Of a stretch of 41,864 nucleotides of DNA, positions 1,493 to 41,713 are shown piece by piece. The stretch covers positions 1 through 41,864 of the IMG/VR virus record IMGVR_UViG_3300045970_000595. One strand, given 5' to 3'. The translations under genes were made by a program, and so were the position numbers. This DNA comes from a virus. The notes under the pieces were generated by a model, which searched no databases, was not told where the DNA came from, and was given only the letters and a program-made list of their open reading frames with translations. Within the stretch, counting starts at the first letter, position 1. The number at the start of each line of letters is the position of its first letter.

Positions 1493-3076
1493 ATGCCCCC
1501 GACCCGCACCGCGTGCTACGTCCGCTACAGCAGCGACCACCAACGCGCCGCCAGCATCGCCGACCAGCTCGCCCTCCTGACCCGCCTGGCCGAAGCCCGC
1601 GGCCTGCCCGCCCCGGCCGTCTATGAGGACGCGGCCATCTCCGGCACCCACACGCACCGCCCCGGCCTGCAGCGCCTGCTCGCCGACGCCGCCGAGGGCC
1701 AGGTGGACGTGCTGCTGATCGAAGACCTCTCACGCCTCGCGCGCGACCTCGGCGACACCGACCGTCTGGTCAAGCGCTTGGCTTTCGACGGCGTCCGCAT
1801 CCTCGCCGCCGACGGCTTCGACAGCGCCAACGAATTCGCCGGGATGCAGGTCGGCCTGCGCGGCATCATGGACGAACACTACATCCGCGACCTCGCCCGC
1901 CGCACCCACCGCGGCCAGACCGGCGCCATCGCCCGCGGCCACCATGCCGGCGGACGCGCCTACGGCTACCGATCCGTCCCGGTACCGGGACCCGGCGGCA
2001 CGCCCCAAGGCTTCGCCCGGGTCATCGATGCGGAGCAGGCCGCCATCGTCCGCCGCATATTCGAGCGCTTCGCCTCCGGCGCCACCGTCTGGGACATCGT
2101 CCGCGAACTCAACCGCGACCACATCCCCGGCCCACGCGGCACCACCTGGAGCCGCAGTGCCCTCTATCCCGACCCCAAGCGCCCCGGCGTCGGGATCCTC
2201 GGCAATCCGCTCTATCGCGGGGAAGTCGTGTGGAACCGCACCCGCTGGGTCAAGGCCCCCGGCGCCGCGACCCGCACCGCCATCCCGCGCCCGCCGGAAG
2301 AATGGCAGGTCCAACAGCACCCCGAGTTGGTCATCGTCCCGCCCGACCTCTGGGCCGCCGCCGCCGCCCAAATCCAGCGTCACGCCCACCGCCCCGGCCG
2401 CCGCGGCACCGGACTGCTCACCGGCATCCTGCGCTGCGCCACCTGCGGCGCCGCCTACGTCGCCATCAACCAAACCCGGCTCGGATGCAGCGCCCACAAG
2501 GAACGCGGCCCCGACGTGTGCGCCCAGGCACTCACCCTGCTGCGCACCCGCACCGAGCGCGTCCTCCTCGACTACGTGCGCCAGGACCTCGTGAGCCCCG
2601 AGGCCCTCGCCTACTTCACCGCGGAGCTGCTGCGCGCCCAGGCCGAACACCAGCCCGATACCAGCGCCATCAAGACCAGGATCCAGGAGGCCGACACCCG
2701 CGCACGCAACATCCTCCGCGCCATCGAGGCCGGCATCTTCACCGAAAGCACCGCCGCCGCCCTCCGCCAGGCCGAAGCCGACCGCACCGCGGCGCAGCGC
2801 GAGTTGGAGCAGGCCCACCGGCCGCCCGTGGCGCCGATCGATCCACGCATCATCCACCGCCGCGTCGTCGCTCAACTGGACGCCATCGAGGACAAGCCCG
2901 CCGCCCGGCAGGCCCTGGGAGAGATTCTTGGAAGGGTCGAGATCGTGGCGCTGCCGACCGGGCCGGTGGCCAGAATAGACCAGGGCCGCGCACTGGCGGC
3001 CCTGGTAGAGAATAGTGGTAGCGGGGGCGCGCTACAGTTGTTTTCTACGCTGATTGAACTGGATTTATCGTCATGA
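1493..3076 (+). CDS. int: Large serine integrase (site-specific recombinase)
   Basis: Cuts and rejoins attP and attB to insert the phage into the host chromosome, and with a directionality factor excises it. The 527-residue length is normal for large serine integrases. The N-terminal resolvase domain (about 1-150) carries YVRYSSDHQ with the likely catalytic Ser13, and EDLSRLARD with Arg81 and Arg84. The recombinase domain follows (about 155-300), then a zinc ribbon with Cys315, Cys318, Cys332 and Cys343, and a charged coiled-coil stretch (about 370-430). No separate excisionase is recognised. The stop overlaps the ATG of the next gene (ATGA), so a membrane protein is coupled to integrase expression. 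attP usually lies beside such genes, but no core could be fixed by eye. Confidence 0.95.
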   Translation: MPPTRTACYVRYSSDHQRAASIADQLALLTRLAEARGLPAPAVYEDAAISGTHTHRPGLQRLLADAAEGQVDVLLIEDLSRLARDLGDTDRLVKRLAFDGVRILAADGFDSANEFAGMQVGLRGIMDEHYIRDLARRTHRGQTGAIARGHHAGGRAYGYRSVPVPGPGGTPQGFARVIDAEQAAIVRRIFERFASGATVWDIVRELNRDHIPGPRGTTWSRSALYPDPKRPGVGILGNPLYRGEVVWNRTRWVKAPGAATRTAIPRPPEEWQVQQHPELVIVPPDLWAAAAAQIQRHAHRPGRRGTGLLTGILRCATCGAAYVAINQTRLGCSAHKERGPDVCAQALTLLRTRTERVLLDYVRQDLVSPEALAYFTAELLRAQAEHQPDTSAIKTRIQEADTRARNILRAIEAGIFTESTAAALRQAEADRTAAQRELEQAHRPPVAPIDPRIIHRRVVAQLDAIEDKPAARQALGEILGRVEIVALPTGPVARIDQGRALAALVENSGSGGALQLFSTLIELDLSS

Positions 3077-3876
3077 CACCACGCCTTTCGCGGCCAATGC
3101 CGCCGCGCCGATTACCTCGGCAGAAGATGACCCGGCTGCACTGGCTGCTTGTCGTTCTGGGGTTGTTGTTTCTCGCGACGCTGATCTCGGCGCCGTTCCA
3201 GTACCGGCCGCCGGACCCGGCCGCGGCGGCCCCGGCGCGGCCGCACGGCACGCATCCTCCCGCGAGCGCACCGGAGGATCAGGATGGAAAGTGGTTGATC
3301 GGTGGACGGCTGCACGACGTGTCTCTCTTGACCTGGCAGGGCGCAACGCCGGAGAACAAGCTCGCGACCGCCGGGGACTGGCTGTTGGGCTCAACGTGGA
3401 AGGGCCGTGTCAACGATGGGCACGATATGAGCCTGCTCAAGGACGCGGCGAAGCGGCTGGTGCGGGCAGTGGATACTGTTGCCAACACGGGGAAGGCGGA
3501 CTTCCAGAATTCCGGCCAGATCGCCGCGCTCATCATCCGGACGGCCAACGACTCCGGGCCGCCCGGAAGTTCTGTTCCGGTCCTGGCCGAGTGGTGGAAG
3601 GGCGGGACCTTGCACAACGCGAACATCGCGGCCTGGCGCGCGGCCACCCAGGAAAACAAGGTGGCCACCGCCGGGGATTGGCTCTGGCGCACGAAGTGGA
3701 AGGGAAATATCGGTAGTCGTTCCGATCTGGATAGACTGAAGATCAAGGCCACGAATTTGGCTCATGCCGTGGATACGGTGGTATCGGAACCCAAGCTGAA
3801 CGATGCTAACACTGGCATGGGCGCGGCAGAGATTGCTGCGGCGCTTCTCGTGATGACGAAAGATTTTGACCCCTGA
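3073..3876 (+). CDS. Membrane-anchored protein with two tandem repeats, coupled to integrase
   Basis: Not recognised. A basic N-terminus precedes one strongly hydrophobic segment (about residues 23-41) and a Pro/Ala-rich linker (44-68), which predicts a protein held in the inner membrane with the rest in the periplasm. The rest is two copies of one about 85-residue unit: both contain W(L/W)xGGxLH, an ATxENKxATAGDWL core (91-104 and 191-204), a WKG, and an AVDT helix near 132 and 232. The ATG overlaps the integrase stop. A gene tied to the integrase and placed before the immunity region could be a superinfection-exclusion or lysogenic conversion factor; that role is inference only. An alternative start is Met19. 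Confidence 0.75.
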   Translation: MTPRLSRPMPPRRLPRQKMTRLHWLLVVLGLLFLATLISAPFQYRPPDPAAAAPARPHGTHPPASAPEDQDGKWLIGGRLHDVSLLTWQGATPENKLATAGDWLLGSTWKGRVNDGHDMSLLKDAAKRLVRAVDTVANTGKADFQNSGQIAALIIRTANDSGPPGSSVPVLAEWWKGGTLHNANIAAWRAATQENKVATAGDWLWRTKWKGNIGSRSDLDRLKIKATNLAHAVDTVVSEPKLNDANTGMGAAEIAAALLVMTKDFDP

Positions 3877-3962
3877 TGGTTGATGGAAACTTGACCATGT
3901 CTGCCGCGCTGCCCTATGCTTTCCCGATCGCCCCTCATGAGCGATCGGGCTTGGCGGCCCGA

Positions 3963-3996
3963 GCAGAGCGGCACAGGGCCGCACGCGGCTTTTTTT
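3963..3996 (+). terminator. Rho-independent terminator with alternative pairing, upstream of C4 RNA
   Basis: A GCCG/CGGC stem (3978-3989) is followed by seven T (3990-3996). The arm GCCGC (3978-3982) can instead pair with GCGGC at 3968-3972, which would break the terminator. GCAGAGC (3963-3969), complementary to the C4 loop, overlaps that competing arm. An inverted repeat (CCCGATCGC/GCGATCGGG) lies just before it, near 3923-3949. Confidence 0.65.
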
Positions 3997-4018
3997 GTCC
4001 CCTGGATTTCCCGATCAA

Positions 4019-4091
4019 TGGGCGGTCCGGGTGGGGAGCCGCAAGGTTCGCCGGTGCTCTGCCGGTCCGCCAACCCATCCGGTTCCGCCCA
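4019..4091 (+). ncRNA. c4: C4 antisense RNA (phage P1/P7 type)
   Basis: Short antisense RNA that in phages P1 and P7 blocks translation of the antirepressor. The fold is clear: the outer stem TGGGCGG (4019-4025) pairs with CCGCCCA (4085-4091). A hairpin GAGCC/GGTTC (4036-4049) carries a GCAA tetraloop. A second hairpin CCGG/CCGG (4051-4065) shows TGCTCTG in its loop. GGTGCTCTGC (4053-4062) is the exact reverse complement of GCAGAGCACC (4132-4141), 5 bases before the antirepressor ATG. Shape, sequence and the gene downstream all fit the C4 family. RNA ends are estimated from the outer stem. Confidence 0.88.
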
Positions 4092-4125
4092 CCCCGCTTG
4101 GCGGCGAGGTGCGCGGCTCTTTGAT

Positions 4126-4141
4126 CGCCAAGCAGAGCACC
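4126..4141 (+). promoter_or_regulatory. C4 target site at the antirepressor translation start
   Basis: GCAGAGCACC (4132-4141) pairs with the C4 loop over 10 bases and covers the ribosome entry region of the ATG at 4147. The adjoining CGCCAAGC (4126-4133) is complementary to GCTTGGCG (4096-4103) just 3' of the C4 outer stem, a possible second contact. No strong Shine-Dalgarno is visible here, as expected if initiation is weak and readily blocked. Confidence 0.78.
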
Positions 4142-4146
4142 TTCCC

Positions 4147-4881
4147 ATGTCGCAAGACACATCCGTCCTATCCGTCCCCTTCCATGGCGCGACCCTGCAC
4201 CTGATTGACCACGCGGGCGAACCCTTCGCCGCGATGCGTCCCATCGTCGAAGCCATGGGTATGGCCTGGCAGGGGCAGTTTGAGAAGATCAAGACGCGGT
4301 ACGAGACCTGCGTCATGGAGATCATGACGCAGGTCCCCGGCGATGACCAGCGCCGCGCTATGATCTGCCTTCCCCTGCGCAAGCTCGCCGGCTGGCTCAT
4401 GACGATCCACCCCAACAAGGTCCGCCCTGACCTGCGCGAGCGCATCATCGCCTACCAGAACGAGTGCGACGACGCGCTGTGGGCCTACTGGTCCCAGGGT
4501 CAGGCCAGCCGGGCGGCGACCGTCCAGGCGCCCGCTGAACCGGCCTGGCCAAAGCTGCCGCCGCCCGATCCGCTCGCCGACAAGGCGGTGCGGACGGCGA
4601 TCAACCGCAAGGCGCACGCCTTGAGCATCGCCGCCTTTGAGCACAACCGGGACATCCTGGAGGAGTGGCTGCGCCAGTCCGACGACATCAGCGACCCGGA
4701 GGCGGCGATTGAGCGCATCCACGACCTGGACCTCGACCACGGCAAGCACGTCATGGTCGACATCCAGTTGCTTTGGGACCTGATCGGGTGCGCGAAGTCC
4801 GCCCATCGGGCGACCGAGGTGCAGATGATCGTCGTCGACCGGATGGAGACGGCGACCGCCCGGCGCTGGTGGGCGCGCTAA
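4147..4881 (+). CDS. ant: Phage antirepressor (P22_AR_N family)
   Basis: A 244-residue protein that would inactivate the lysogeny repressor and induce lytic growth. The N-terminal domain (about 1-115) matches the P22 antirepressor N-terminal family: VPFHGATLHLIDHAGEPFAAMRPIVEAMGMAW, then ICLPLRKLAGWLMTI and RERIIAYQNECDDALWAYW. The C-terminal part is helical and carries no recognised domain. ATG 4147 is chosen because family homology starts there and because the C4-complementary site sits directly before it; the frame is open further upstream but would run through the C4 RNA. The gene converges on the late operon and the two stops are 7 bases apart. Confidence 0.92.
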   Translation: MSQDTSVLSVPFHGATLHLIDHAGEPFAAMRPIVEAMGMAWQGQFEKIKTRYETCVMEIMTQVPGDDQRRAMICLPLRKLAGWLMTIHPNKVRPDLRERIIAYQNECDDALWAYWSQGQASRAATVQAPAEPAWPKLPPPDPLADKAVRTAINRKAHALSIAAFEHNRDILEEWLRQSDDISDPEAAIERIHDLDLDHGKHVMVDIQLLWDLIGCAKSAHRATEVQMIVVDRMETATARRWWAR

Positions 4882-5683: not shown

Positions 5684-8600
5684 GCCCCTCCGACCCAGGC
5701 CAGGGCCTTGCTGTGCGTTGATTGGTCAAAGACGGCATCTGGGATGCTGGTGTTGCTGGTCACGTCGGCGCTTGGGTACGGTGTGTAAAGCACGCTGCCC
5801 TCCGTGGATCGCATAGCGACGAGGTTGCGTTCGACCGGTGTCTGGCCATTGCTGTCAAACGCGGACCAGTTGGACCAGTCAGCATCCGTCGCCAACGTGT
5901 CCCCAACAACATTCAATAGCATATTGCATGTCTGCGCACCAGCTGTTGTTTCACTGTACGAGGTAAAAATTGCTCCGGGCTTAGCTGTGCAGAATACATA
6001 AGCATTTCCGTATGTCAGGGTACCGGAGCATGGCCCCTGCTCAAACGCAGTTTGATAAACAGCAGTTCCAATATCTGAAACGACGACGCGGTTATTATAG
6101 GTGTTCCACTGGGAATAATTAAGCGCCCTAACCTCCGCGCCCACAAGCATTTTTGAGCCTGTTACCCTTTGCCCTGACGTTGCGATGCTGTCTGAGTATT
6201 CTTCCATTCCAAACCAAACGGAATCAGGGTAGACAGGGCAGTAAATCATAATCTGGACACCGGCAGCACCCGATTTGGTCGCAGACTCCTTTGTTCCCTC
6301 TCCGATCCCTTGTAACCAGCGAATTTCGACAATCCTATCTGGCGTAAATCCATTAATCTGTGCCATTATTTGCGTCCATGTCGGGCCTGAGCAGCGCCCC
6401 ATTGGGGTATTAACTCCGTCATAATAGGAGCTTAGATTAAGACTTACGTTATAGTCTCCATTATATGATCTTCCTGAAATTGTCCAGTTTTTTGATGTAG
6501 TAGAGACTGTCCCAAATAACATCGGTGAGGGAATAGAGTCTCCATAACCGCCGATGATTGCACTTGTTGCTGTGGTCGTTGTTGATCCTCCACTACTAGA
6601 GTTACAAACCGTCCCTATTCCATCTCCCGTGGTACCGGTATGACTATAATTTGATACGATAGACGCAGCAAAATAGTAAGTAATCAACAGATGGTCGGTG
6701 TCGCTATATCTGCAAATAATTGGAGCACTAACAGCGCAATCACTACTCCCAGGCCACGTCTGCGCGTTGCGCAACAGATTAAACGTCCCGTCTCCATACC
6801 AGAATTTATGATAAGCCCAGTAGGGACGGAATCGCGCAAACGTCCCAGTAGTCAGCACCACACTCGGTTCGCCATCGGTAAACATTAATGCCCAATGCGA
6901 CAGCGCAGACTCAAATGCTTCCCATCCGGCACTTGGCGTAATGCTGCGATGAGTGACGATTGCTGCGTGCGTCCCGGTTGAGTCGAATACCCAACCCAGT
7001 TGGATCGGGGATGCGCCGTCAGCATACGTCGGAGCCATCGTCTCGGCGTCGATCAGCACGTCAACTGCCCGGCCAATATCGGGCACCAGATCGGACAGGA
7101 CATTTGCACGATCCAGGGTCTTCGCAGGCTCGTCGGCAGGGTCGCCACCAAACAGCCACGCCTGAAGCTGCTCAGTGAGCGGTCCGGGCTTCATGCGCTG
7201 CGCCCGAAGTCCACCAGGTCCACAGTTGAGCGCCCAATAGACGCCAGCCGCGGAGTCGTAGGCCAGGCCCATCGCCCCCGGCGCCTGGGAAAATCCCGCG
7301 GACCAGTGCGCCGCGCGTTCTGCGTCCTTCAATCCAGCGCCAAGCCACGCCTGCCAGATGGCGCGCGCCAGTCCAGTGTAAGGCCCCGGCTGCGCCGCCT
7401 GCTCGTAGCCGCCGCCCGCGTTTGTCCCGATCAGATAACGCAGATTTTCCGCTCCTTCCCCATGCAGGCTGGGATGTACGTCTGCAATCAGGGTCGGTGC
7501 TTCGGCGTTGCCGCCGATCGTCCCGACGAAATACATCTGCTGCACCGGGTCCGACTCCGGGACCGTCCACCCCGCCCCCGAGTACCACGCGTCAATGGCG
7601 CTGCCTGGGTAAATGTAGGCCGGTGTAGACGCCGCCGCGTCGTGCATGTCAGACAGATCGCAGACAAAAAGACCATGCTCGATCAGTCGGCCGCAGCGCC
7701 GCGGATTGTCTGCCCAGCCGACCACACGGGCGGACTTCCACACCGCGGCGGGGTCCTCCTTGGAGTGCGCGCGGACCGGGAAGTCAATCAGCACTTGATC
7801 GCCGACCTCATAAACGGACTGCACGCAATGCGCAATAGGCAGGTCAAGAATTAGAGGATTGGCTGGCTGAGCAATCATGCTGCGGGTCTGGACCAGTGCG
7901 TAGACCGCGGCATCTACTGCGGCGCGGGTCGCGGCTATATCGCCGCGGTGCGCATCGTCGCAGATAGCATAGGCGAGGGCTTGCTCGTCGGCGACCTCGG
8001 ACAGGGCGTTGGCGAAGCAGGCGGCCAGGCTCTCCTCATACTGGCCCTGACAGGCGGAAGGGTCTGCCAACAGGTTGCATTGGATCAACCAGTTCGTCCA
8101 GATCGATTGGCAGTTGGCTTGCTTGGCGGCCAGGAGTGCGTCGCCATCGAAGGCGGCCCGGCAGTCGGTCAGGCCCTGTTGGGCGGCGGCGAATGCTTCC
8201 TGAGCCGTTTTCAGGGCAGCGATCTTGGCAGCGATGTCCGTTTCGATCGTCTTCCAGGTATCGTCGAAGTAGGCTTGCGGCGGGGTGCAGTTGATCTCGC
8301 GCCTGGACACCAGGGTGCCGAGCGAGCCGGTCAGGACGGCGGTGTCGAATTGCACCTTGAGGGTGCCGTCGTCATTGAGCGCCTTGACCACGCCGGTGCG
8401 CCAGGTCGGAGCCCAGGTCTCGCGGCCGGTCACCAGGGCGGCATCGACAGTCAGGTACCGCGCGGGCAGGGTGCGGGAGTCGACCCAGCAATTGGTGACC
8501 GAGGTAATAGCCGTGACGGCGTGTCGGCCCTCCGGGGTTTGTGCGACCTCGACCTGGGCGTCGGGCTCAAGGGTATCGTCATATTGAGCGGCGAATACCG

Positions 8601-27577: not shown

Positions 27578-28998
27578 TGGCCTGGACCGCCCGCACCGCG
27601 CTATTGGTCCACCAGGACGCCGCCGTGGTCAAGGTCCTGCCGTCGCGGGTCGGCGCCCTGTTCATGGAGATGGGCACCGGAAAGACCCGCACCGCCGCGG
27701 AGTTGGCGCGGCTGCGGCAAGGCAAGATCGACCAGGTGGTGTGGTTCTGCCCGTGCGCCCTGAAAGAGACGATCCGGCGCGAGGTACTCAAGCACACCAG
27801 TTGCACCGCGGCGGACATCCATGTGTTCGACGACCACACCAGCGAGGCGACGGTCCCGGCGGTGCTTTGGTACATCGTCGGCATCGAGTCGATGAGCAGC
27901 TCGGCCCGGGTCATCTTTACCGTGAAGGGCCTGATCACCGAGCGGACCATGGTGGTGGTCGATGAGTCCGGATACATCAAGGGCGCGAAGTCGCGCCGGA
28001 CCGAGCGGATTACCCTGCTCGCCCGCGAGGCCCGCTATCGGCTGATCCTGACCGGCACCCCGCTGTCACAAGGCATCGTGGACCTGTTTGCGCAGATGCG
28101 CTTCCTGTCGCCGACCATCCTGGGCTATCGATCCTTCCACGCCTTTGCCCGCAATCACATCGTCTGGTCGGCGCGCTTCCCCGGCATGATCGAGGGCGAG
28201 AAGAACCGGGATTATCTGGCGCAGCGCATCCGGCCCTATGTCTACCAGGTGACGAAGGCCGAGTGTCTGGACCTCCCGGACAAGCTCTACGCCTCCCGCT
28301 ATTGCACCCTGACGCCCGAGCAGGCCGCCGCCTACGCCGAGGCCAAGGAGCGCTTCCTGTGCGAGGACTACTTGTTCGAGGATGGCTGGGCGCGGTCGAT
28401 CGCCGTGTTCCGGATGTTCACCGCGCTGCAACGGATCGTCTGCGGTCACCAGCGGGCGCCCGATGGGGATCTGATCTGCTACCCAAGCCGGCGGCTCGAC
28501 CTGCTGTTGACCGTGCTGCGCGAGCTGCCGGCCAGAGAGCCGGTCGTCATCTGGGCCAAGTACCGGCAGTCGGCCGCCGACATCGGCGCGGCCCTGGTTG
28601 CTGAGCAGGGGCCGGAGCGGGTCCATGCCTACCACGGGGGGCTCTCGGAGCGCAGCCGTCAAGCGAACCTGGACAACTGGCGCGCCCGGGGCGGGGCCTT
28701 GGTCGCCACCCAGGCGTGCGGCGGCCATGGCCACGACTTCACCGCGGCCCGGTACGCGATCTATTACGCCAATGGCTTCAAGTATTCCGAGCGGCAGCAG
28801 ACCGAGGACCGGCTGCACCGCATCGGCCAGACCCGGGCGCCCACCTACATCGACATTTGGAGTAGCGCCGGCATCGACTCCCGCGTGGACAAGGCACTTG
28901 CCCGCAAGGGGAACGCCGTTGAGGAGTTCCGGCGGATCGTCGACCGGGTGAAGCATGGCAGTAAGGCGCGGGTGCGGCGACTGATTGAGGGATTGTGA
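27577..28998 (+). CDS. SNF2-family DNA helicase/translocase
   Basis: A 473-residue ATPase that moves along double-stranded DNA. Motif I is MEMGTGKTRTA (Lys36), motif II VVVDESGYIKG (Asp129, Glu130), motif III LTGTP (158-162), and motif VI QTEDRLHRIGQ near 430. DES in place of DEAH is common in phage SNF2 proteins. ATG 27577 is used since it overlaps the upstream stop; the longer open frame before it is a shadow of the HARP-like gene. No nuclease or methyltransferase domain is fused. The neighbours suggest an accessory DNA-processing or modification machine rather than core replication. Confidence 0.9.
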   Translation: MAWTARTALLVHQDAAVVKVLPSRVGALFMEMGTGKTRTAAELARLRQGKIDQVVWFCPCALKETIRREVLKHTSCTAADIHVFDDHTSEATVPAVLWYIVGIESMSSSARVIFTVKGLITERTMVVVDESGYIKGAKSRRTERITLLAREARYRLILTGTPLSQGIVDLFAQMRFLSPTILGYRSFHAFARNHIVWSARFPGMIEGEKNRDYLAQRIRPYVYQVTKAECLDLPDKLYASRYCTLTPEQAAAYAEAKERFLCEDYLFEDGWARSIAVFRMFTALQRIVCGHQRAPDGDLICYPSRRLDLLLTVLRELPAREPVVIWAKYRQSAADIGAALVAEQGPERVHAYHGGLSERSRQANLDNWRARGGALVATQACGGHGHDFTAARYAIYYANGFKYSERQQTEDRLHRIGQTRAPTYIDIWSSAGIDSRVDKALARKGNAVEEFRRIVDRVKHGSKARVRRLIEGL

Positions 28999-30215
28999 TG
29001 GGCAAGCACTATCTGGACATCGACTGCTATTCCGCCGCCCGTGAGCGGGTGCGGATCATCCTAGAGCACTTCCCGCGCTTCTACGTGTCCTTCAGCGGCG
29101 GCAAGGACTCCGGGGCCTTGCTCAATCTGGTGGTCGACGTGGCCCGCGAGATGGGCCGCCTGCCGGTGACCGCCCTGATCCTGGACCTCGAGGGCCAGTA
29201 CCAGCACACCATCGACTACCTCGCGCGGGAGTGCGACCGGCCCGAGGTGAAGGCCCTGTGGGTGTGCCTGCCGCTGCACCTGCGCAATGCCGTGTCCCAG
29301 TTCCAGCCGCACTGGCTGTGCTGGGACCCGCGGTGTCCCGAGAAGTGGATTCGGCCCCTGCCGCGGCGGGCCGATGTGATCAGCGATGAGGGCCACTTCC
29401 CGTTCTTCCGGAGCGGGATGGAGTTCGAGGAGTTCGTGCCGGCTTTCGGCGACTGGTTCGCCGACGGGGTGGAGACCGCCTGTTTCGTCGGCATCCGCTC
29501 GGACGAATCGCTGAACCGGTACCGGACCATCACGAGCGAGACCAAGCAGCCCTGGCAGGGCCACCCCTGGACGACGCGCGTCACCCGCGATACCGGCAGC
29601 GTCTACAACGCCTATCCGCTCTACGACTGGGGCACGGCCGATGTCTGGATCGCCAACGCGCGCCAGCACTGGGATTACAACCGGGTCTATGACCTGATGC
29701 ACCTGGCCGGGCTCGGCATCCACCAGATGCGCCTGTGCCAGCCCTACGGCGATGACCAGCGCAAGGGGCTTTGGCTCTTCAAGATCCTTGAGCCCGAGAC
29801 CTGGTCGCGTGTGGTCGAGCGGGTGCAGGGCGCGAACTTCGGTAACCGCTACGTGCAGTTGACCGGATCGGTCATGGGCAACATCCGCATCGACCTGCCG
29901 GAGGGGCACACCTGGCGCAGCTATGCCTACCTGATCCTGACCTCGATGCCGCCCCCGGTGGCGACCCACTACCGGAAGAAGATCGCCGTGTTCTTGCGCT
30001 GGTGGCGCAAGCACGGCAAGGACCTCGGCTATCCACGCGTCACCGATGAGGCCGCCGCCGCCCTGGAGGCGAAGCGCAAGGCCCCGAGTTGGCGGCGCAT
30101 CTGCAAGACCCTGCTCAAGAATGACTACTGGTGCAAGGGGCTGAGCTTCACTCAGACCAAGCGCGAGATGGAGCGGCAGCTCGATCTGGTCACCCGCTAC
30201 ATGGAGGACCTATGA
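28998..30215 (+). CDS. ibrA: IbrA-like PAPS-reductase-family protein (DUF3440)
   Basis: A 405-residue PP-loop ATPase-type protein. FYVSFSGGKDSGALLNL (SGGKDS at 33-38) is the nucleotide-binding loop of the PAPS reductase/DndC superfamily. Long IbrA-type sequence follows: LCWDPRCPEKWIRPLP, GIRSDESLNRYRTI, YPLYDWGTADVW, and a C-terminal WRRICKTLLKNDYWCKGLSFTQTK. In enteric prophages IbrA acts with IbrB as a regulator of surface-protein genes; its chemistry is not established. The paralogue DndC takes part in DNA phosphorothioation. Three overlapping neighbours (SNF2, GNAT, IbrB-like) form one operon. Symbol given by resemblance. Confidence 0.85.
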   Translation: MGKHYLDIDCYSAARERVRIILEHFPRFYVSFSGGKDSGALLNLVVDVAREMGRLPVTALILDLEGQYQHTIDYLARECDRPEVKALWVCLPLHLRNAVSQFQPHWLCWDPRCPEKWIRPLPRRADVISDEGHFPFFRSGMEFEEFVPAFGDWFADGVETACFVGIRSDESLNRYRTITSETKQPWQGHPWTTRVTRDTGSVYNAYPLYDWGTADVWIANARQHWDYNRVYDLMHLAGLGIHQMRLCQPYGDDQRKGLWLFKILEPETWSRVVERVQGANFGNRYVQLTGSVMGNIRIDLPEGHTWRSYAYLILTSMPPPVATHYRKKIAVFLRWWRKHGKDLGYPRVTDEAAAALEAKRKAPSWRRICKTLLKNDYWCKGLSFTQTKREMERQLDLVTRYMEDL

Positions 30216-31886: not shown

Positions 31887-33976
31887 CAGAAGGCCCGGAA
31901 CCGGCCGGCGGGCACCGCAGCGACGGGCGGAGGCATGGCCGTTCCCCGCGAAACCGGCGGCGGTGCCAGGGCCGGGAGACCCGCCGCCGGCAAGGGCTCA
32001 GGCAGGGGCAGGGCGAGCGACTGCTGCCGCAGCCGCTGCTCTTCCGTTTGCCACTGGGCAGGCGTGTAGATATGCAGCTTGAGGGCCCGGGCGGCGTGCT
32101 CGACATAGACCTCACAGTCCAGCGCCTCGTGGGCGACGCCGACTTTGGGCTGCCAGGTGAGCCGCCCGCGCTGCGTCTTGGAGGGGGCCTTGACCTCACT
32201 CAGGATCTGGTCCCAGTAGTCGACCCGCACGCCGGCGTAGGCGTGATGGCGGCCCTGGCCCTGGGCCTCCAGCTTCCACCGCGCGGACAGATGGTCCTTG
32301 GCGCGCCAGGTGCCGACCTCGTAGACGCGCACGCCCCAGCGGTCGGCCTTGGTGTAGCGGTTGGGATTGGCGGGATTGACGGCGGCGGATTTGGGCGGGC
32401 TGTAGATTTCGCGGTCGATGTGCGCGCCCTTGCCGGCCATGAGCACGACGCCGGGGAAGCGGCGCTTGCGGGAGACGATCCACGCGTAGACAGCATCGTT
32501 GGTGCCGCCGTCGCCGGAGTCGATGGTGACGGCCTTGACGTGCAGCACCAGGCCGTCGGCGCTGACATAGGGCTCGAACAGCAGCCGATCCAGTTCGCTC
32601 CACACCGGGTCCTCGGCGTTGATGGTGCTGACCGCGGCCGCTGGCTCGTGCCACAACACCAGCCAGGAGGCCCCATCGCGGCCGTAGGCGCGGATTAGGA
32701 CCGATAGGCGGTTGTTCTGCACGTCCACGGACGCGGCGAGCGCCAGCGCCCCGGCAGGGGGCTCTCCTTCGGGGTAGTCCAGCGCGGCGGCGCGCAGTTG
32801 CTCGGCCTGCGCCTGATCGCCAACGAACGCGTAGGGCCGACCGTGCTTGCTGTTGACGTGGACGATCATCTTGGTCTGATCGCCCTGGCGCAGGGCGTAC
32901 TCCGCCTCCAGACGATCGCGGACATAGGCGGCCATGCCGGCACCGGGCAGGCAGGAGTACGCCTCGTTCAGTTCGGTGAAGCCCGCCGCGCCGCGGGTCT
33001 CACGGGTCGGGGTCCAACCGCAGAGCGGATCGCCGGCCGCGATGGCCTGCGCGACGGTGGTCCGGATGTTCTGCTGACGCTGGTAATCGTCCCACGGGGT
33101 GCCGCAGTGCGGGCAGGCGTAGACGGCGGTGTCGGGGTCGGCGGCGCCGTAGATCGGGTGGCTCTCGCGCTCGTGATCCTGCCAGGTGACATGCTCCAGG
33201 TCGAGCACATGGGACTCGTGGCACGCGTGACAGCGCACCGGCAGCACGCGGCGGTCGGTCAGGCTCAGGCGGTGCTCGATCTGGCTCAGGCCCTTGAGCG
33301 AGGGCGTACCGCCGATGATCCGCTTGACGTCCGTACGGCGTTTGGATCGCTCCCAAAGCAGTTGGATCGCCGACCCTTGGTCCCGGACATTTTCCTTGGC
33401 GTCGTCCGGCTCCTCGACGAACAGCACCCCGGCGGAGGTGGACTTGACCTTGCGGATTTGGCCGGAGCCGCCGAGCTTGAGGAATCCGCCGGGGAACGCC
33501 TTGAAGTCCGAGCGATTGCCGGCGGTGCGGGACCGGCGCACGTCGATGCGGCTGAGCAGGGCCGGGGTATTCTCGATGATGGGCACCAGCTTCTCGTCGT
33601 GAAAGTCGCGCGCGGCGCCGTCGCTGTCGAACAGCCCGATCATGGCGCAGGGGGCGTTGCAGATGCGGTTGCCCAGGTAGGCAATCAGCCCCGTCGTCCA
33701 CGCTTGCTGCGCGCTCTTCATGCACACCACGTCGGCGATGGCCGGATCGTCGAGCGCCGCGAAGATGCCGTACAGGGCCGGGGCGTAGTAGAGGCTGAAC
33801 AACCCATGCTGCTCACTCGTCTCCGGCGCCAGGTACAGCGATCGCTCCGCGAACTGAGCCGTCGGAATCATTTCCCGCGGCATCCACTCCGAGCCCGCCT
33901 GCCTCAGCAGTCGCGCCAAGGTCTTGCGCGTAGGCTGCAATATTTCGTTGTGCATCACGTAGGTGTGCTGCGACAT
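31886..33976 (-). CDS. terL: Terminase large subunit (GpA family)
   Basis: ATP-driven DNA packaging motor and nuclease, 696 residues. The ATPase region has VVCMKSAQQAWTTGL (Lys87), a deviant Walker A where lambda A has KSARVGYSK; a Gly of that loop is Ala here. VLFVEEPDDAKENV, GGTPSLKGLSQIEHRL and a CHAC/CPHC zinc-like pair follow as in GpA proteins. The nuclease region shows ASVDVQNNRLSVLI, TIDSGDGGTND and a final EALDCEVYVEHAARAL. ATG 33976 is preceded by GGAGG at 6-base spacing. It overlaps the small subunit gene by 164 bases, longer than in lambda. Confidence 0.94.
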   Translation of the reverse strand: MSQHTYVMHNEILQPTRKTLARLLRQAGSEWMPREMIPTAQFAERSLYLAPETSEQHGLFSLYYAPALYGIFAALDDPAIADVVCMKSAQQAWTTGLIAYLGNRICNAPCAMIGLFDSDGAARDFHDEKLVPIIENTPALLSRIDVRRSRTAGNRSDFKAFPGGFLKLGGSGQIRKVKSTSAGVLFVEEPDDAKENVRDQGSAIQLLWERSKRRTDVKRIIGGTPSLKGLSQIEHRLSLTDRRVLPVRCHACHESHVLDLEHVTWQDHERESHPIYGAADPDTAVYACPHCGTPWDDYQRQQNIRTTVAQAIAAGDPLCGWTPTRETRGAAGFTELNEAYSCLPGAGMAAYVRDRLEAEYALRQGDQTKMIVHVNSKHGRPYAFVGDQAQAEQLRAAALDYPEGEPPAGALALAASVDVQNNRLSVLIRAYGRDGASWLVLWHEPAAAVSTINAEDPVWSELDRLLFEPYVSADGLVLHVKAVTIDSGDGGTNDAVYAWIVSRKRRFPGVVLMAGKGAHIDREIYSPPKSAAVNPANPNRYTKADRWGVRVYEVGTWRAKDHLSARWKLEAQGQGRHHAYAGVRVDYWDQILSEVKAPSKTQRGRLTWQPKVGVAHEALDCEVYVEHAARALKLHIYTPAQWQTEEQRLRQQSLALPLPEPLPAAGLPALAPPPVSRGTAMPPPVAAVPAGRFRAF

Positions 33977-34397
33977 GTCGATCCTCCAGGGCCACCCCGA
34001 ACTCGCTGCGCAGTCCATCGCAGATCCTGCGCTGTGCGGCATCAAGCGCCAGCGCCCCGCGGGCCGCCCAGTTGCGCAACGCCCGACTCACCTCGACCTC
34101 CGGCACCAGGTGGCCCAGGTCTCTCGCCGTCTCGACCTCCGCCTTGTGCGCCTTGGCGTTGGCCTCCCGCACCCGGGCCGCCGTCAGCTCCCCGCCGCGC
34201 CCCTCGCCGTCCTCGCCATAGCCTGACGCCACCGAGCGCAGGTTGCTGATGTAGGCAGTCAACCACTGGCGCATGGTTTGCCCCTTCGCGAGGACGCCGC
34301 GATCGATCATCTCGCTGACCTTGGGCTGCTGGATACCGACCAGCCGCGCGAAGGCGGCTTGAGTATCGGTCTGGTCCAAGGCGCTATAGTCTTTCAT
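33813..34397 (-). CDS. terS: Terminase small subunit (Nu1-like)
   Basis: A 194-residue DNA-recognition subunit, close to the 181 of lambda Nu1. N-terminal TQAAFARLVGIQQPKVSEMIDRGVLAKG is a winged helix-turn-helix like Nu1; a helical middle (ELTAARVREANAKAHKAEVETARDLGHLVPEVEVSRAL) is typical of these proteins. The last about 55 residues are encoded inside the terL start. It should bind repeats near the packaging site; repeats stand just upstream at 34449-34499. Confidence 0.85.
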   Translation of the reverse strand: MKDYSALDQTDTQAAFARLVGIQQPKVSEMIDRGVLAKGQTMRQWLTAYISNLRSVASGYGEDGEGRGGELTAARVREANAKAHKAEVETARDLGHLVPEVEVSRALRNWAARGALALDAAQRRICDGLRSEFGVALEDRHVAAHLRDAQRNIAAYAQDLGATAEAGGLGVDAAGNDSDGSVRGAIAVPGAGDE

Positions 34398-34448
34398 AAC
34401 CCATTGACCACAGTAATAATCCCCCCCATAGCGGCCCCCGTCTGAAAA

Positions 34449-38475: not shown

Positions 38476-38916
38476 TCATCCTGCGGTCTCGCCGTGATCG
38501 GCTGCTTCGACGCGCTCTGCGCCCGGCGTGACAAACTTCAGAAAACCCAAGCGCATAGCGGCGCCCCTGACTGAATCAGCCTGCTTTCGCGTCAATATTT
38601 CAGGCCATTGCGAGATGCGCCCGCGCGTCACCCCTACCCCGATGGCCAGGTCTTGCTGAGTGGTGCCAAACAAGGCGATAGCTTCGGTCTTGGTCTTGGG
38701 GACACTGCAGACCCCCTGATTCGCGGCACAAACCGTCAGAGCTTCCTGTAACGCCTGGAGGCTCGCGACCTGGGGATTGACGATATGCCCAGCCCGAAAC
38801 TTCGAGACCCAGGACTCGGAAACGACACGACCAGCGGCAGACGCGATCTCCTGGTTAGTCGCCTGACACTCTTGGAGGCGCGTGCGCAGGGTCTGGATGT
38901 AACTCTCAATGTCCAT
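38476..38916 (-). CDS. Double helix-turn-helix regulator, C-terminal P22 Cro-like
   Basis: A 146-residue repressor-type protein with two DNA-binding domains. Residues about 20-60 (NQEIASAAGRVVSESWVSKFRAG) form an XRE-like HTH. Residues about 85-135 (KTEAIALFGTTQQDLAIGVGVTRGRISQWPE, then ADSVRGAAMRLG) match P22 Cro-type proteins, which normally stand alone at about 60-70 residues. ATG 38916 lies 12 bases from operator O1 and is chosen because HTH homology begins there. As first gene of the leftward early transcript it takes the place of cro. A fusion of two regulators in one chain is unusual. Confidence 0.82.
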   Translation of the reverse strand: MDIESYIQTLRTRLQECQATNQEIASAAGRVVSESWVSKFRAGHIVNPQVASLQALQEALTVCAANQGVCSVPKTKTEAIALFGTTQQDLAIGVGVTRGRISQWPEILTRKQADSVRGAAMRLGFLKFVTPGAERVEAADHGETAG

Positions 38917-38923
38917 GCGGCAC

Positions 38924-38966
38924 AATCTAGCAGCCTGCTGCTTGAGACGCAAGCAGCAAACTGTAG
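38924..38966. promoter_or_regulatory. Operators O1/O2 and divergent promoters of the immunity switch
   Basis: O1 is TAGCAGCCTGCTGCTT (38928-38943), a perfect AGCAGCNNGCTGCT dyad. O2 (38951-38966, AAGCAGCAAACTGTAG) is a weaker copy 23 bp on. A leftward promoter reads TTGCGT (38952-38947), 17 bases, TAGATT (38929-38924), with O1 between and over its boxes. A rightward promoter may use TTGAGA (38942-38947) and TAGATC (38964-38969), which overlaps O2. Confidence 0.8.
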
Positions 38967-38991
38967 ATCGGTTTGCGTAGGCTGGCAACCT

Positions 38992-39348
38992 ATGGGCCAG
39001 TCCTCACTTGCCATCCTCGCCGCCAACGTCAAGCGGCTCCGCGACGCCGAGTCTTGGTCACAACCTGATCTGGCCCGGCGCTCTGGCGTGCCCCAGACAA
39101 CGATCAGCGCTATCGAAAACGCCAAGCATAAGGTCAGCGTGGCGAAGGTCGAAATGCTTGCCAAAGCCTTTCGTTTGCCGACTTGGGCGTTGTTGATGCC
39201 GGAAATCGATGTCGCGCTGTTCCGAGAAAACGGACTGGCAAAGATCGTTGACACCTACATCGCCCTCCCTCCTGATCGACGCGAAGAAATCTCCAGGGTG
39301 TCGGAGCGCGAGTCGCACTACCACATGAACCGCGAGCCAAAAACTTAG
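38992..39348 (+). CDS. XRE-family phage repressor
   Basis: A 118-residue regulator likely to hold the prophage silent. The N-terminal HTH is clear: LAANVKRLRDAESWSQPDLARRSGVPQTTISAIENAKHKVSVAKVEMLAKAF (about 7-60). The C-terminal half is short and lacks the Ser/Lys peptidase of CI, so it is not expected to cleave itself in an SOS response; release of repression by the antirepressor at 4147 would be an alternative. ATG 38992 is used; the frame upstream passes through the operators and the opposite gene. It diverges from the double-HTH gene. Confidence 0.85.
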   Translation: MGQSSLAILAANVKRLRDAESWSQPDLARRSGVPQTTISAIENAKHKVSVAKVEMLAKAFRLPTWALLMPEIDVALFRENGLAKIVDTYIALPPDRREEISRVSERESHYHMNREPKT

Positions 39349-39623: not shown

Positions 39624-39699
39624 GCCTGATTCCGCCCCGCGGATCAGCCCGCCCCCTCGCTGTGAGTGGGGGGCACCATCCCAACCAACAGGAGGCCGC

Positions 39700-39795
39700 A
39701 TGGCCAACCGCATCGATTTACCGGCAAACACCCCGGACCCGAAAGACCAGGACGAAGACGACAAGGACGGCAAAGGCAAGGACGAAGAGGAATAG
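39700..39795 (+). CDS. 31-residue acidic/lysine-rich small protein
   Basis: An ORF with GGAGG (39691-39695) 4 bases before ATG 39700. It begins MANRIDLPANTPDPKD and continues as a run of Asp, Glu, Lys and Gly to the TAG at 39793. This charge pattern suggests a disordered peptide. It stands first in the rightward early transcript, just before a strong hairpin and the ParB-like gene. Function unknown; too short for ordinary gene callers. Confidence 0.5.
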   Translation: MANRIDLPANTPDPKDQDEDDKDGKGKDEEE

Positions 39796-39805
39796 CCCGA
39801 GCCCC

Positions 39806-39847
39806 CCATCGGCGCCCGCCGCACTCCCCGGCGGCAGGCGCCGATGG
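39806..39847 (+). terminator. Strong hairpin upstream of the ParB-like gene, attenuator candidate
   Basis: CCATCGGCGCC (39806-39816) and its exact complement (39837-39847) form 11 bp, capped by CGCCG/CGGCG (39817-39833). Only TTT follows, so termination may be partial. It lies between the 31-residue ORF and the ParB-like start and could let the first ORF be made in excess. Confidence 0.55.
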
Positions 39848-39886
39848 TTTCCCGAGAAACAAGCACCCCATTATCGAGCAAGCACC

Positions 39887-41713
39887 ATGGGAATCGTGAC
39901 GCAGGTCGTGGCGGCCGGAGATGACCAGATGGCGGAACACTCCGCCACCGTGTGGTGCGATCAGTGCCGCACCCCCGGCCCGACGCATCGCGAGCAGGGC
40001 CAGGCCGCCTATGTCGCCACCGTCGCCGCCGGGAAAGCCCAGAAGGCGCACTGGGTGGTAGCGGGGCACCATCCACAGATCCGCGCGCTATGCCCGGGGT
40101 GCGCGGTGTTGGACCCGCAGTTTGTGGCCCCGGCGGGATCTGCGCCCGAACCAGCCCCGGACGATAACGCCGCACCGGTCAGCGCCCCGCCTGCGCGGGC
40201 GACCCGGCGCCGGAGGATTCGTCTGGCTGAACCGGCCGGCCCGACCGACGCATGGTGTCGCGACGCTGGATTGACCCCGACCGACCGCTGCCCCGATACC
40301 CTCGAACTGCCCGGCACCGAGTACCGTCCAGGCATCGTTTATCAAATCCCGTGCGCGCTGCTCGCTCGCGATCCCGATCAGCCCCGGGTGGAGTTCGAGC
40401 CGGCCGCCCTGGAGGCCCTGGCCGCCGACCTCGTGGCCAGCGGCCAGCAAAGCCCGATCATGTTCCGGCTCGGCCCCCGCAACGACGGTGAGGCGATCGT
40501 TCCCCAACTTTACGTGGTCCATGGTGAGCGGCGCTGGCGAGCGGCGCAGCTCGCCGGACTGTCTGCCGTCGCCGGGATCTTGGATCCACAGGATGACCAC
40601 CCGGGCCATGAGTTACCGGCCGAACGCGTGCTGCGGCAGGCCACCGACAACGATCTGCATGAGCCGCTCAGTGCTTGGGACTGGGCCTATACCATCAAGC
40701 GCCTGACCGAGCCGCCGCACAACATGCGGGTCGGCGAGATCGCCAAGGAACTGACCCGCCGCGGCATCCCCGGCAAGTCGCACTCGGTGGTGTCCACCTT
40801 CTTGTCTTTGCACAGGCTTCCGGTCTGGGGACAGCTCGCGATCCAGAGCGGCGCACTCACCCGCTCCCACGCCAAATACATCCTGCCCCATCTGGACCGC
40901 CCCGAGATCATGGACGCCCTCGGCGTCTGGCTCGCCGAACGTGTCGCCCAGTACATCCCCGCCGGTACCGATCTGGCCGACTGCGCATCAAAGGTCGACG
41001 GCAGCGAGCCCCCGCGCGAGCTCACCATCCCCGAGTCCATCCACGCCGATTTTGACGCCCGCCCGGTCAGCATCCCCGATCTGCGCTACCGCATCGCCGA
41101 CTTGTACAAACAGCACTACATGCCGCTGGAGGGCGGCAAGTGGTTCGCCGATCCAACCGCATACGTGTCGGCGCGGTTCGATTCAGCCGCGGAATGCGCA
41201 CGCTGCCCGCAATACGCGGTAGTCGACGGGACGGAGCGCAAGGCCAGTTACTGCTGCGATACCACCCTGGTCTGCTTCTACGCCAAGAATCAGGCGGCGG
41301 CCCGCGCCCTGGACGAAGCGCACGCCGTCGCCGCCATCGAGCGCCAGGCGCGCGGCGAGCCCGCGGGCTCGGGCGAGGCCAAGCGGGCGCAGCGTGCCCG
41401 CGAACTCGAACAAGAGCGGCTTGAACGCGACGCCATCAAGGCGGCCATCAAGAATCTGGACGACGACGAGGCCGCCATCGACCTCTTGCTGTACGCCCTG
41501 ACGGTAGCCGATTTCCGCCTGGAAAAGGACAAGCGCGGAAAGATCAGCATCGAGAGCCTGTCGACCAAGCGCGCCCGCAAGGGCACTGCCGCCATGCTCG
41601 GGCCGTTCATCGATGACGCCCTCGGCTCCCGGTACTACGAACCGGATATCCGCCGGGCCGTCGCCGATTACCTCGGAGTCGAAACCCCCGCCGATCAGGA
41701 GACCCCCGCTTGA
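39887..41713 (+). CDS. ParB-like DNA-binding protein with zinc knuckles
   Basis: A 608-residue protein. The N-terminus has WCDQC and CPGC (about 23-72), a likely zinc site. The ParB N-terminal domain spans about 150-250 with RDPDQPRVEF (161-170) and the nucleotide-binding VVHGERRWRAAQ (210-221); a helical DNA-binding part follows (MRVGEIAKELTRRGIPGKSHSVVSTFLSLHRL). A second cysteine cluster lies near 512-545 (ECARCPQY, YCCDTTLVC), and the C-terminus is charged helix. No ParA is present, so plasmid-style partition is doubtful; control of replication or transcription is as likely. Start choice is 39887; ATG 39929 is also possible. The stop overlaps the TTG of the DUF551-like gene. Confidence 0.83.
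   Translation: MGIVTQVVAAGDDQMAEHSATVWCDQCRTPGPTHREQGQAAYVATVAAGKAQKAHWVVAGHHPQIRALCPGCAVLDPQFVAPAGSAPEPAPDDNAAPVSAPPARATRRRRIRLAEPAGPTDAWCRDAGLTPTDRCPDTLELPGTEYRPGIVYQIPCALLARDPDQPRVEFEPAALEALAADLVASGQQSPIMFRLGPRNDGEAIVPQLYVVHGERRWRAAQLAGLSAVAGILDPQDDHPGHELPAERVLRQATDNDLHEPLSAWDWAYTIKRLTEPPHNMRVGEIAKELTRRGIPGKSHSVVSTFLSLHRLPVWGQLAIQSGALTRSHAKYILPHLDRPEIMDALGVWLAERVAQYIPAGTDLADCASKVDGSEPPRELTIPESIHADFDARPVSIPDLRYRIADLYKQHYMPLEGGKWFADPTAYVSARFDSAAECARCPQYAVVDGTERKASYCCDTTLVCFYAKNQAAARALDEAHAVAAIERQARGEPAGSGEAKRAQRARELEQERLERDAIKAAIKNLDDDEAAIDLLLYALTVADFRLEKDKRGKISIESLSTKRARKGTAAMLGPFIDDALGSRYYEPDIRRAVADYLGVETPADQETPA

Follow-up and report, generated by a model that had tools for sequence, protein, structure and literature searches.

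Whether a phage antirepressor gene can be held silent by an antisense RNA encoded directly upstream of it, as in the immI region of phages P1 and P7, is the question raised by this locus. C4 RNAs pair through two segments, and processing by RNase P to about 77 nt is a trait of the C4 antisense RNA family. The window analysed here, a stretch of 41,864 bases of viral DNA, contains genes for a portal protein, a head protease, the terminase large subunit, tape-measure and tail proteins and a primase-helicase. The original prediction had noticed a P1-type C4 RNA in front of an antirepressor and near a serine integrase, and the Resolvase, Recombinase and zinc-ribbon domains found at 1493-3076 substantiate the integrase. 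Its further description of the phage as lambda-like is putative. Our analysis indicates that the locus very probably carries a complete C4-type module that silences the antirepressor in the lysogen (Table 1). What could be read directly are the RNA family, two complementary pairs on both sides of the RNA, their covariation, and promoter and terminator motifs.

Table 1. Features of the antirepressor region and its surroundings, with positions in the window
Feature	Position	Strand	Basis or remark
Serine integrase (Resolvase, Recombinase, zinc-ribbon domains)	1493-3076	+	domain search
Sigma-70-like promoter, TTGACC-18-TATGCT	3891-3920	+	transcript start expected near 3927
c4-a1b1-like leader: hairpin and a1-presenting hairpin	3914-3965	+	RF03163
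isrK-like terminated leader RNA	3930-3995	+	RF01394
a1 target box, TTGGCGG	3951-3957	+	exact complement of C4 linker 4067-4073
b1 target box, GCAGAGC	3963-3969	+	exact complement of C4 loop 4056-4062
Weak intrinsic terminator, hairpin and T7 tract	3975-3998	+	motif
C4 antisense RNA	4014-4096	+	RF01695 match; fold of 4019-4091
43-codon open frame, in frame with ant	4018-4146	+	ATG at C4 5′ end; same place as orf45 of Gifsy-1
b′ loop of C4, GGTGCTCTGC	4053-4062	+	exact complement of b2
a′ linker of C4, CCGCCAA	4067-4073	+	exact complement of a1 and a2
a2 target box, TTGGCGG	4098-4104	+	exact complement of C4 linker
b2 target box, GCAGAGCACC	4132-4141	+	10-nt exact complement of b′ loop
Antirepressor ant, 244 aa	4147-4881	+	P22_AR_N domain (PF10547); phrog_524 anti-repressor Ant

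The covariance-model search that had been proposed as a check placed the Rfam C4 family (RF01695) on 4014-4096 with 58 bits, above the gathering cut-off of 45, and covered model positions 1-87; no second Rfam match above cut-off was found anywhere in the 41,864-base window. The segment 4019-4091 is predicted to fold into three stems at -47.2 kcal/mol (z -4.5 relative to dinucleotide shuffles), and this fold, together with the Rfam match, bears out the three-stem RNA first noticed there. For the P1/P7 C4 RNA, PMC5320573 summarises that b′ masks the ribosome-binding site, that specificity comes from a′, and that the RNA is cleaved by RNase P at a GGW motif; a GG is present at the start of the stem in the C4 of the window.

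The gene downstream is an antirepressor, as expected for a C4 locus: the protein starting at ATG 4147 scores 154.7 bits against P22_AR_N. The 10-base match between C4 and the stretch just before this ATG is exact (4053-4062 with 4132-4141). The b2 box ends 5 nt before the ATG and covers AGAG, the only Shine-Dalgarno-like bases seen directly before the ant start. The loop is thus complementary to the ribosome-binding region over 10 nt, and the linker to a second box over 7 nt (4098-4104), which, like the covariance score, places the RNA among the C4 RNAs. The ribosome-binding site being weak, repression would target a poorly translated gene. The 7-base core that had been seen to recur at 3963-3969, GCAGAGC, turned out to be the b1 half of an upstream target, so that a second pair, a1/b1, lies upstream of C4 behind the same promoter motif, as in immI of the P1 type. 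All coordinates and sequences named in the original prediction are correct; absent from it were the linker pair (a′ with a1 and a2) and the promoter and terminator of the leader. Apart from the upstream and downstream targets, no position on the + strand of the window has both boxes within 60 nt, and the single such - strand site corresponds to the complement of C4. The a2 box lies within a predicted local inverted repeat (GCTTGGCG...CGCCAAGC, 4096-4132) that abuts b2, and this fold could compete with C4 for a2.

To compare the module among relatives, we searched for the C4 core pattern, which gave at least 120 stretches in viral contigs and at least 119 in genome contigs. There were 214 distinct matches with enough flank, 163 of which had at least 8 outer-stem pairs (51 of 214 were dropped); removal of one false repeat family left 156, and these reduced to 138 listed non-redundant loci, of which viral contigs, the window among them, gave 65 and genome contigs 73. 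The repeat removed before counting, GCCGGTCCACCCGGTGGGCCAACCC, matched the core pattern and is repeated across many viral contigs, where its flanks are conserved and the C4 outer stem is mostly missing; we rejected it as a C4, and it is perhaps a conserved coding sequence.

Among the 138 listed loci, an exact complement of a′ was found upstream in 119 (permuted partners: mean 32.1, maximum 41) and downstream in 96 (mean 26.3, maximum 36), and a b′ match of at least 6 nt upstream in 108 (mean 37.6, maximum 49) and downstream in 104 (mean 35.0, maximum 50); the permutation of partners leaves relatedness among loci in place. Of the 138, 19 lack an exact upstream box, some of them in phyla in which the pattern has probably picked up something other than a C4. 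At the two variable linker positions, 110 of the 138 listed loci agree with the TTGGCnn closest on the upstream side and 12 disagree (16 are boxless), while for the first downstream TTGGCnn 95 agree and 3 disagree (40 boxless). Agreement spans six different types of variable bases, and the viral and genome sets give the same covariation result when analysed separately. Since the search pattern fixes GCCAA and the stem, what the covariation tests is limited to the loop and two bases of a′. At the level of sequence, then, both boxes follow the changes of C4 on both sides of it, and the complementarity that the original prediction expected in related phages is kept through these changes. Neither of the two outcomes named there as refuting, a missing covariance-model match and a lack of conserved complementarity, was obtained.

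Upstream of C4, the promoter-like site at 3891-3920 is the only one in 3600-4300 (shuffles give 0.1), and a similar site 27-34 nt before a1 was found in 47 of 110 listed related loci, against a shuffle expectation of 0.7. The region that follows resembles two known leader RNAs. The c4-a1b1 model (RF03163) matches over its full length with both hairpins paired, at 36.7 bits (cut-off 46.7; E 6.8e-8 in a 351-base scan of 3850-4200), and the isrK model (RF01394) at 28 bits (cut-off 50; E 2.5e-4 and 7.2e-6 in two scans). Both scores are below the cut-offs and we therefore claim no membership, although position and structure still fit. The leader of the window is predicted to favour a 7-bp hairpin masking part of a1, which speaks against the silencing module proposed below, and the terminator shares GCCGC (3978-3982) with an alternative hairpin whose arm is GCGGC (3968-3972).

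We propose that the single promoter would give a transcript with a1, b1, the weak terminator, C4, a2, b2 and ant, from which C4 would be excised, by analogy with P1. The a′ linker would pair with a2, and the b′ loop with b2 over the ribosome-binding site, so that ribosomes would be unable to start on ant. The terminated leader, containing a1 and b1, would most likely be a decoy for C4, as IsrK may be in Gifsy-1; a decoy is likely because, according to PMC4825925, the locus of IsrK is activated when IsrK is provided in trans. Ant would inactivate the phage's own repressor. We infer each of these steps, namely RNA processing, translational block, decoy role and repressor inactivation, from the arrangement of the parts. 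A possible HTH repressor-like protein is encoded at 38785-39348 and is a candidate target of Ant.

The comparison with Gifsy-1 extends this picture. In Gifsy-1 (33301-34420), matches to isrK (79.3 bits, against 28 in the window), c4-a1b1 (48.1 bits) and C4 (69 bits) lie on one strand in the same order as in the window, with 25 nt between the isrK and C4 matches. For this locus, PMC4825925 describes two elements downstream of IsrK, namely orf45 and the processed RNA STnc1160, with orf45 conserved in nucleotides and not in amino acids; it also describes folds of isrK-orf45-anrP in which structure A is silent and structure B active, and two pairs of compensatory mutations, G28A/C162U and G31A/C159U. 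In Gifsy-1, the reading frame that opens with the ATG at the C4 5′ end has 45 codons, and orf45 therefore covers C4; STnc1160, to judge by its place, would be the processed C4. The a1b1 leader of Gifsy-1 is IsrK, and the seven base pairs of a1:a′ include G28/C162 and G31/C159 (nt 1 being the start of the isrK match). Compensatory-mutation evidence, which had been suggested as a further check, thus exists in a relative, in the form of these published mutants on a1:a′. The available text of PMC4825925 contains none of the terms 'c4 rna', 'c4 repressor' or 'phage p1', and we did not find the identity of IsrK with the C4 leader stated in the literature searched, where one review, in the portion available, treats the two separately. 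The architecture itself is already known, from passages of PMC4603805 that place C4 in one transcription unit with isrK in Burkholderia, from the part of Weinberg 2010 (PMC2864571) that lists c4 and c4-a1b1, and from the Rfam entries. The locus in the window is a new C4-type module of an already known system, which the original prediction had right but understated.

The same data were weighed for other readings. The leader, rather than free C4, might be the main regulator, the C4 sequence serving mainly as a cis-acting fold, as the available sections of PMC4825925 propose for Gifsy-1. Their mutants fit a1:a′ pairing in cis, and the window keeps every part, including the ATG at the C4 5′ end. 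However, their orf45 begins at the C4 5′ end, and among 119 listed loci only 38 have ATGG in the 30-55 nt preceding the loop stem, which argues that translation of C4 is not general, whereas a2/b2 after C4 are common; we consider this reading unlikely. By the same count, an orf45-type gene over C4 in the window (ATG 4018) was rejected as probably incidental; its frame runs into ant without a stop, unlike the 45-codon frame of Gifsy-1, which ends before the anrP frame. That C4 is a relic, its RNA no longer made or acting and ant controlled otherwise, would be in keeping with the weak ribosome-binding site and with leader models under their cut-offs, but the loop and linker as they now stand are matched exactly at both targets, where a relic would be expected to have lost one match, and the promoter is intact, so that we give this reading very little credence. 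In favour of chance complementarity within a GC-rich spacer one could cite that dinucleotide shuffling gave the downstream match of at least 10 nt, taken alone, 132 times in 20,000 and the two upstream 7-mers together 143 times in 20,000. This reading is refuted by the comparative test on the 138 listed loci, in line with the Rfam match, the covariation and the joint occurrence of a loop match of at least 10 and a linker match of at least 7 just once when the downstream stretch was shuffled 20,000 times. The upstream pair, modest by itself, is firm because of the comparative evidence across loci.

A silencing module of the C4 type remains the reading we prefer, and its leader may hold a further layer of control. 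For the leader arms, we used 96 of the 119 listed loci with an exact a1, leaving out 23 without a T4-plus-hairpin. An arm, S1, can pair with the 5′ arm of the putative terminator over at least 4 nt in 67 of these 96 loci (means of 26.3 with shuffled linkers and 51.1 with arm swaps) and over at least 5 nt in 34 (5.1 and 13.8, respectively). Of the 62 listed loci in which S1 and b1 could both be placed, 48 show an overlap of 1-2 nt between them. Read by eye, the P1 leader has the same arms, TGCGG, CCGCA and TGCGG before TATTTTT. The conserved alternative hairpin formed by S1, which shares bases with b1, hints at regulated termination. In equilibrium folding of 85 listed loci, treating b1 as occupied changed the cost of the terminator by -0.26 kcal/mol, compared with -0.22 kcal/mol for control masks, and in the window the terminator became costlier (from 4.8 to 6.3; control 4.5). 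Neither the direction nor the effect of attenuation by C4 is thus supported by equilibrium folding, and what is supported is the conserved alternative hairpin alone; a read-through or termination switch controlled by C4 is for now hypothetical. We tentatively raise the idea, which we hold to be rather doubtful, that C4 modules, including that of P1, are three-RNA switches in which S1:S2 alternates with the terminator S2:S3, and IsrK and C4 are halves of one device. The arms S1, S2 and S3 would be mutually exclusive, with S1 overlapping b1; C4 on b1 would in addition govern the frequency of read-through at the leader terminator, and the terminated leader of the IsrK type would soak up C4.

The likeness to P1/P7 immI, put forward in the original prediction, is supported, with qualifications. 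The annotation of the P1 record gives the order two promoters, putative a1 and b1, C4, a2, b2, icd and ant1, and the window shares the order promoter, a1, b1, C4, a2, b2, antirepressor; a hairpin followed by a T tract, which we read as terminator-like, is also visible in the P1 leader. Order, boxes and covariance match therefore agree with immI, but the comparison is incomplete, since icd, which in P1 lies between b2 and ant, is absent from this place in the window, where no separate gene fits. The boxes also differ (TTGGCGG/GCAGAGC in the window, TTGACAG/GTTAGTGC in P1), and the antirepressor is of the P22_AR_N type, unlike that of P1/P7 immI. An antisense RNA blocking a P22-type antirepressor recalls sar and ant of P22; sar, however, matches on the strand opposite ant, whereas the C4 of the window is on the same strand. 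Escherichia phage TL-2011b has a sar match before a P22_AR_N-type ant as well as an isrK-C4 module beside a Bro-N gene (3908-3975 and 6840-7038). Targets on either side of the RNA within one transcript are shared with the P4 CI RNA, which, according to passages of PMC4825925, acts by premature transcription termination, a mode that would be hypothetical for the module in the window.

Elsewhere in the window, a 267-aa protein with two similar halves (NKxATAGDWL is repeated) is encoded at 3073-3876, between the integrase and the C4 leader, a ParB-like protein at 39662-41713, and a phosphoadenosine phosphosulfate reductase-like protein (phrog_2302) at 28995-30215; the last is a possible auxiliary metabolic gene.

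With this module, a textbook case of immunity control by antisense RNA is extended to a phage that has a serine integrase together with an antirepressor of the P22 type. Across the comparative set, the match between C4 and its targets is code-like, with two variable parts that are kept at two targets simultaneously. The main further interest lies in the conserved leader arms and in the link between C4 and IsrK, which connects the P1-type C4 system to an RNA described separately in Salmonella. Through this link, the published Gifsy-1 mutants can serve as a test of a1:a′ pairing, and the ideas of a decoy and of attenuation can be put to a direct test in P1 or in the phage of the window.
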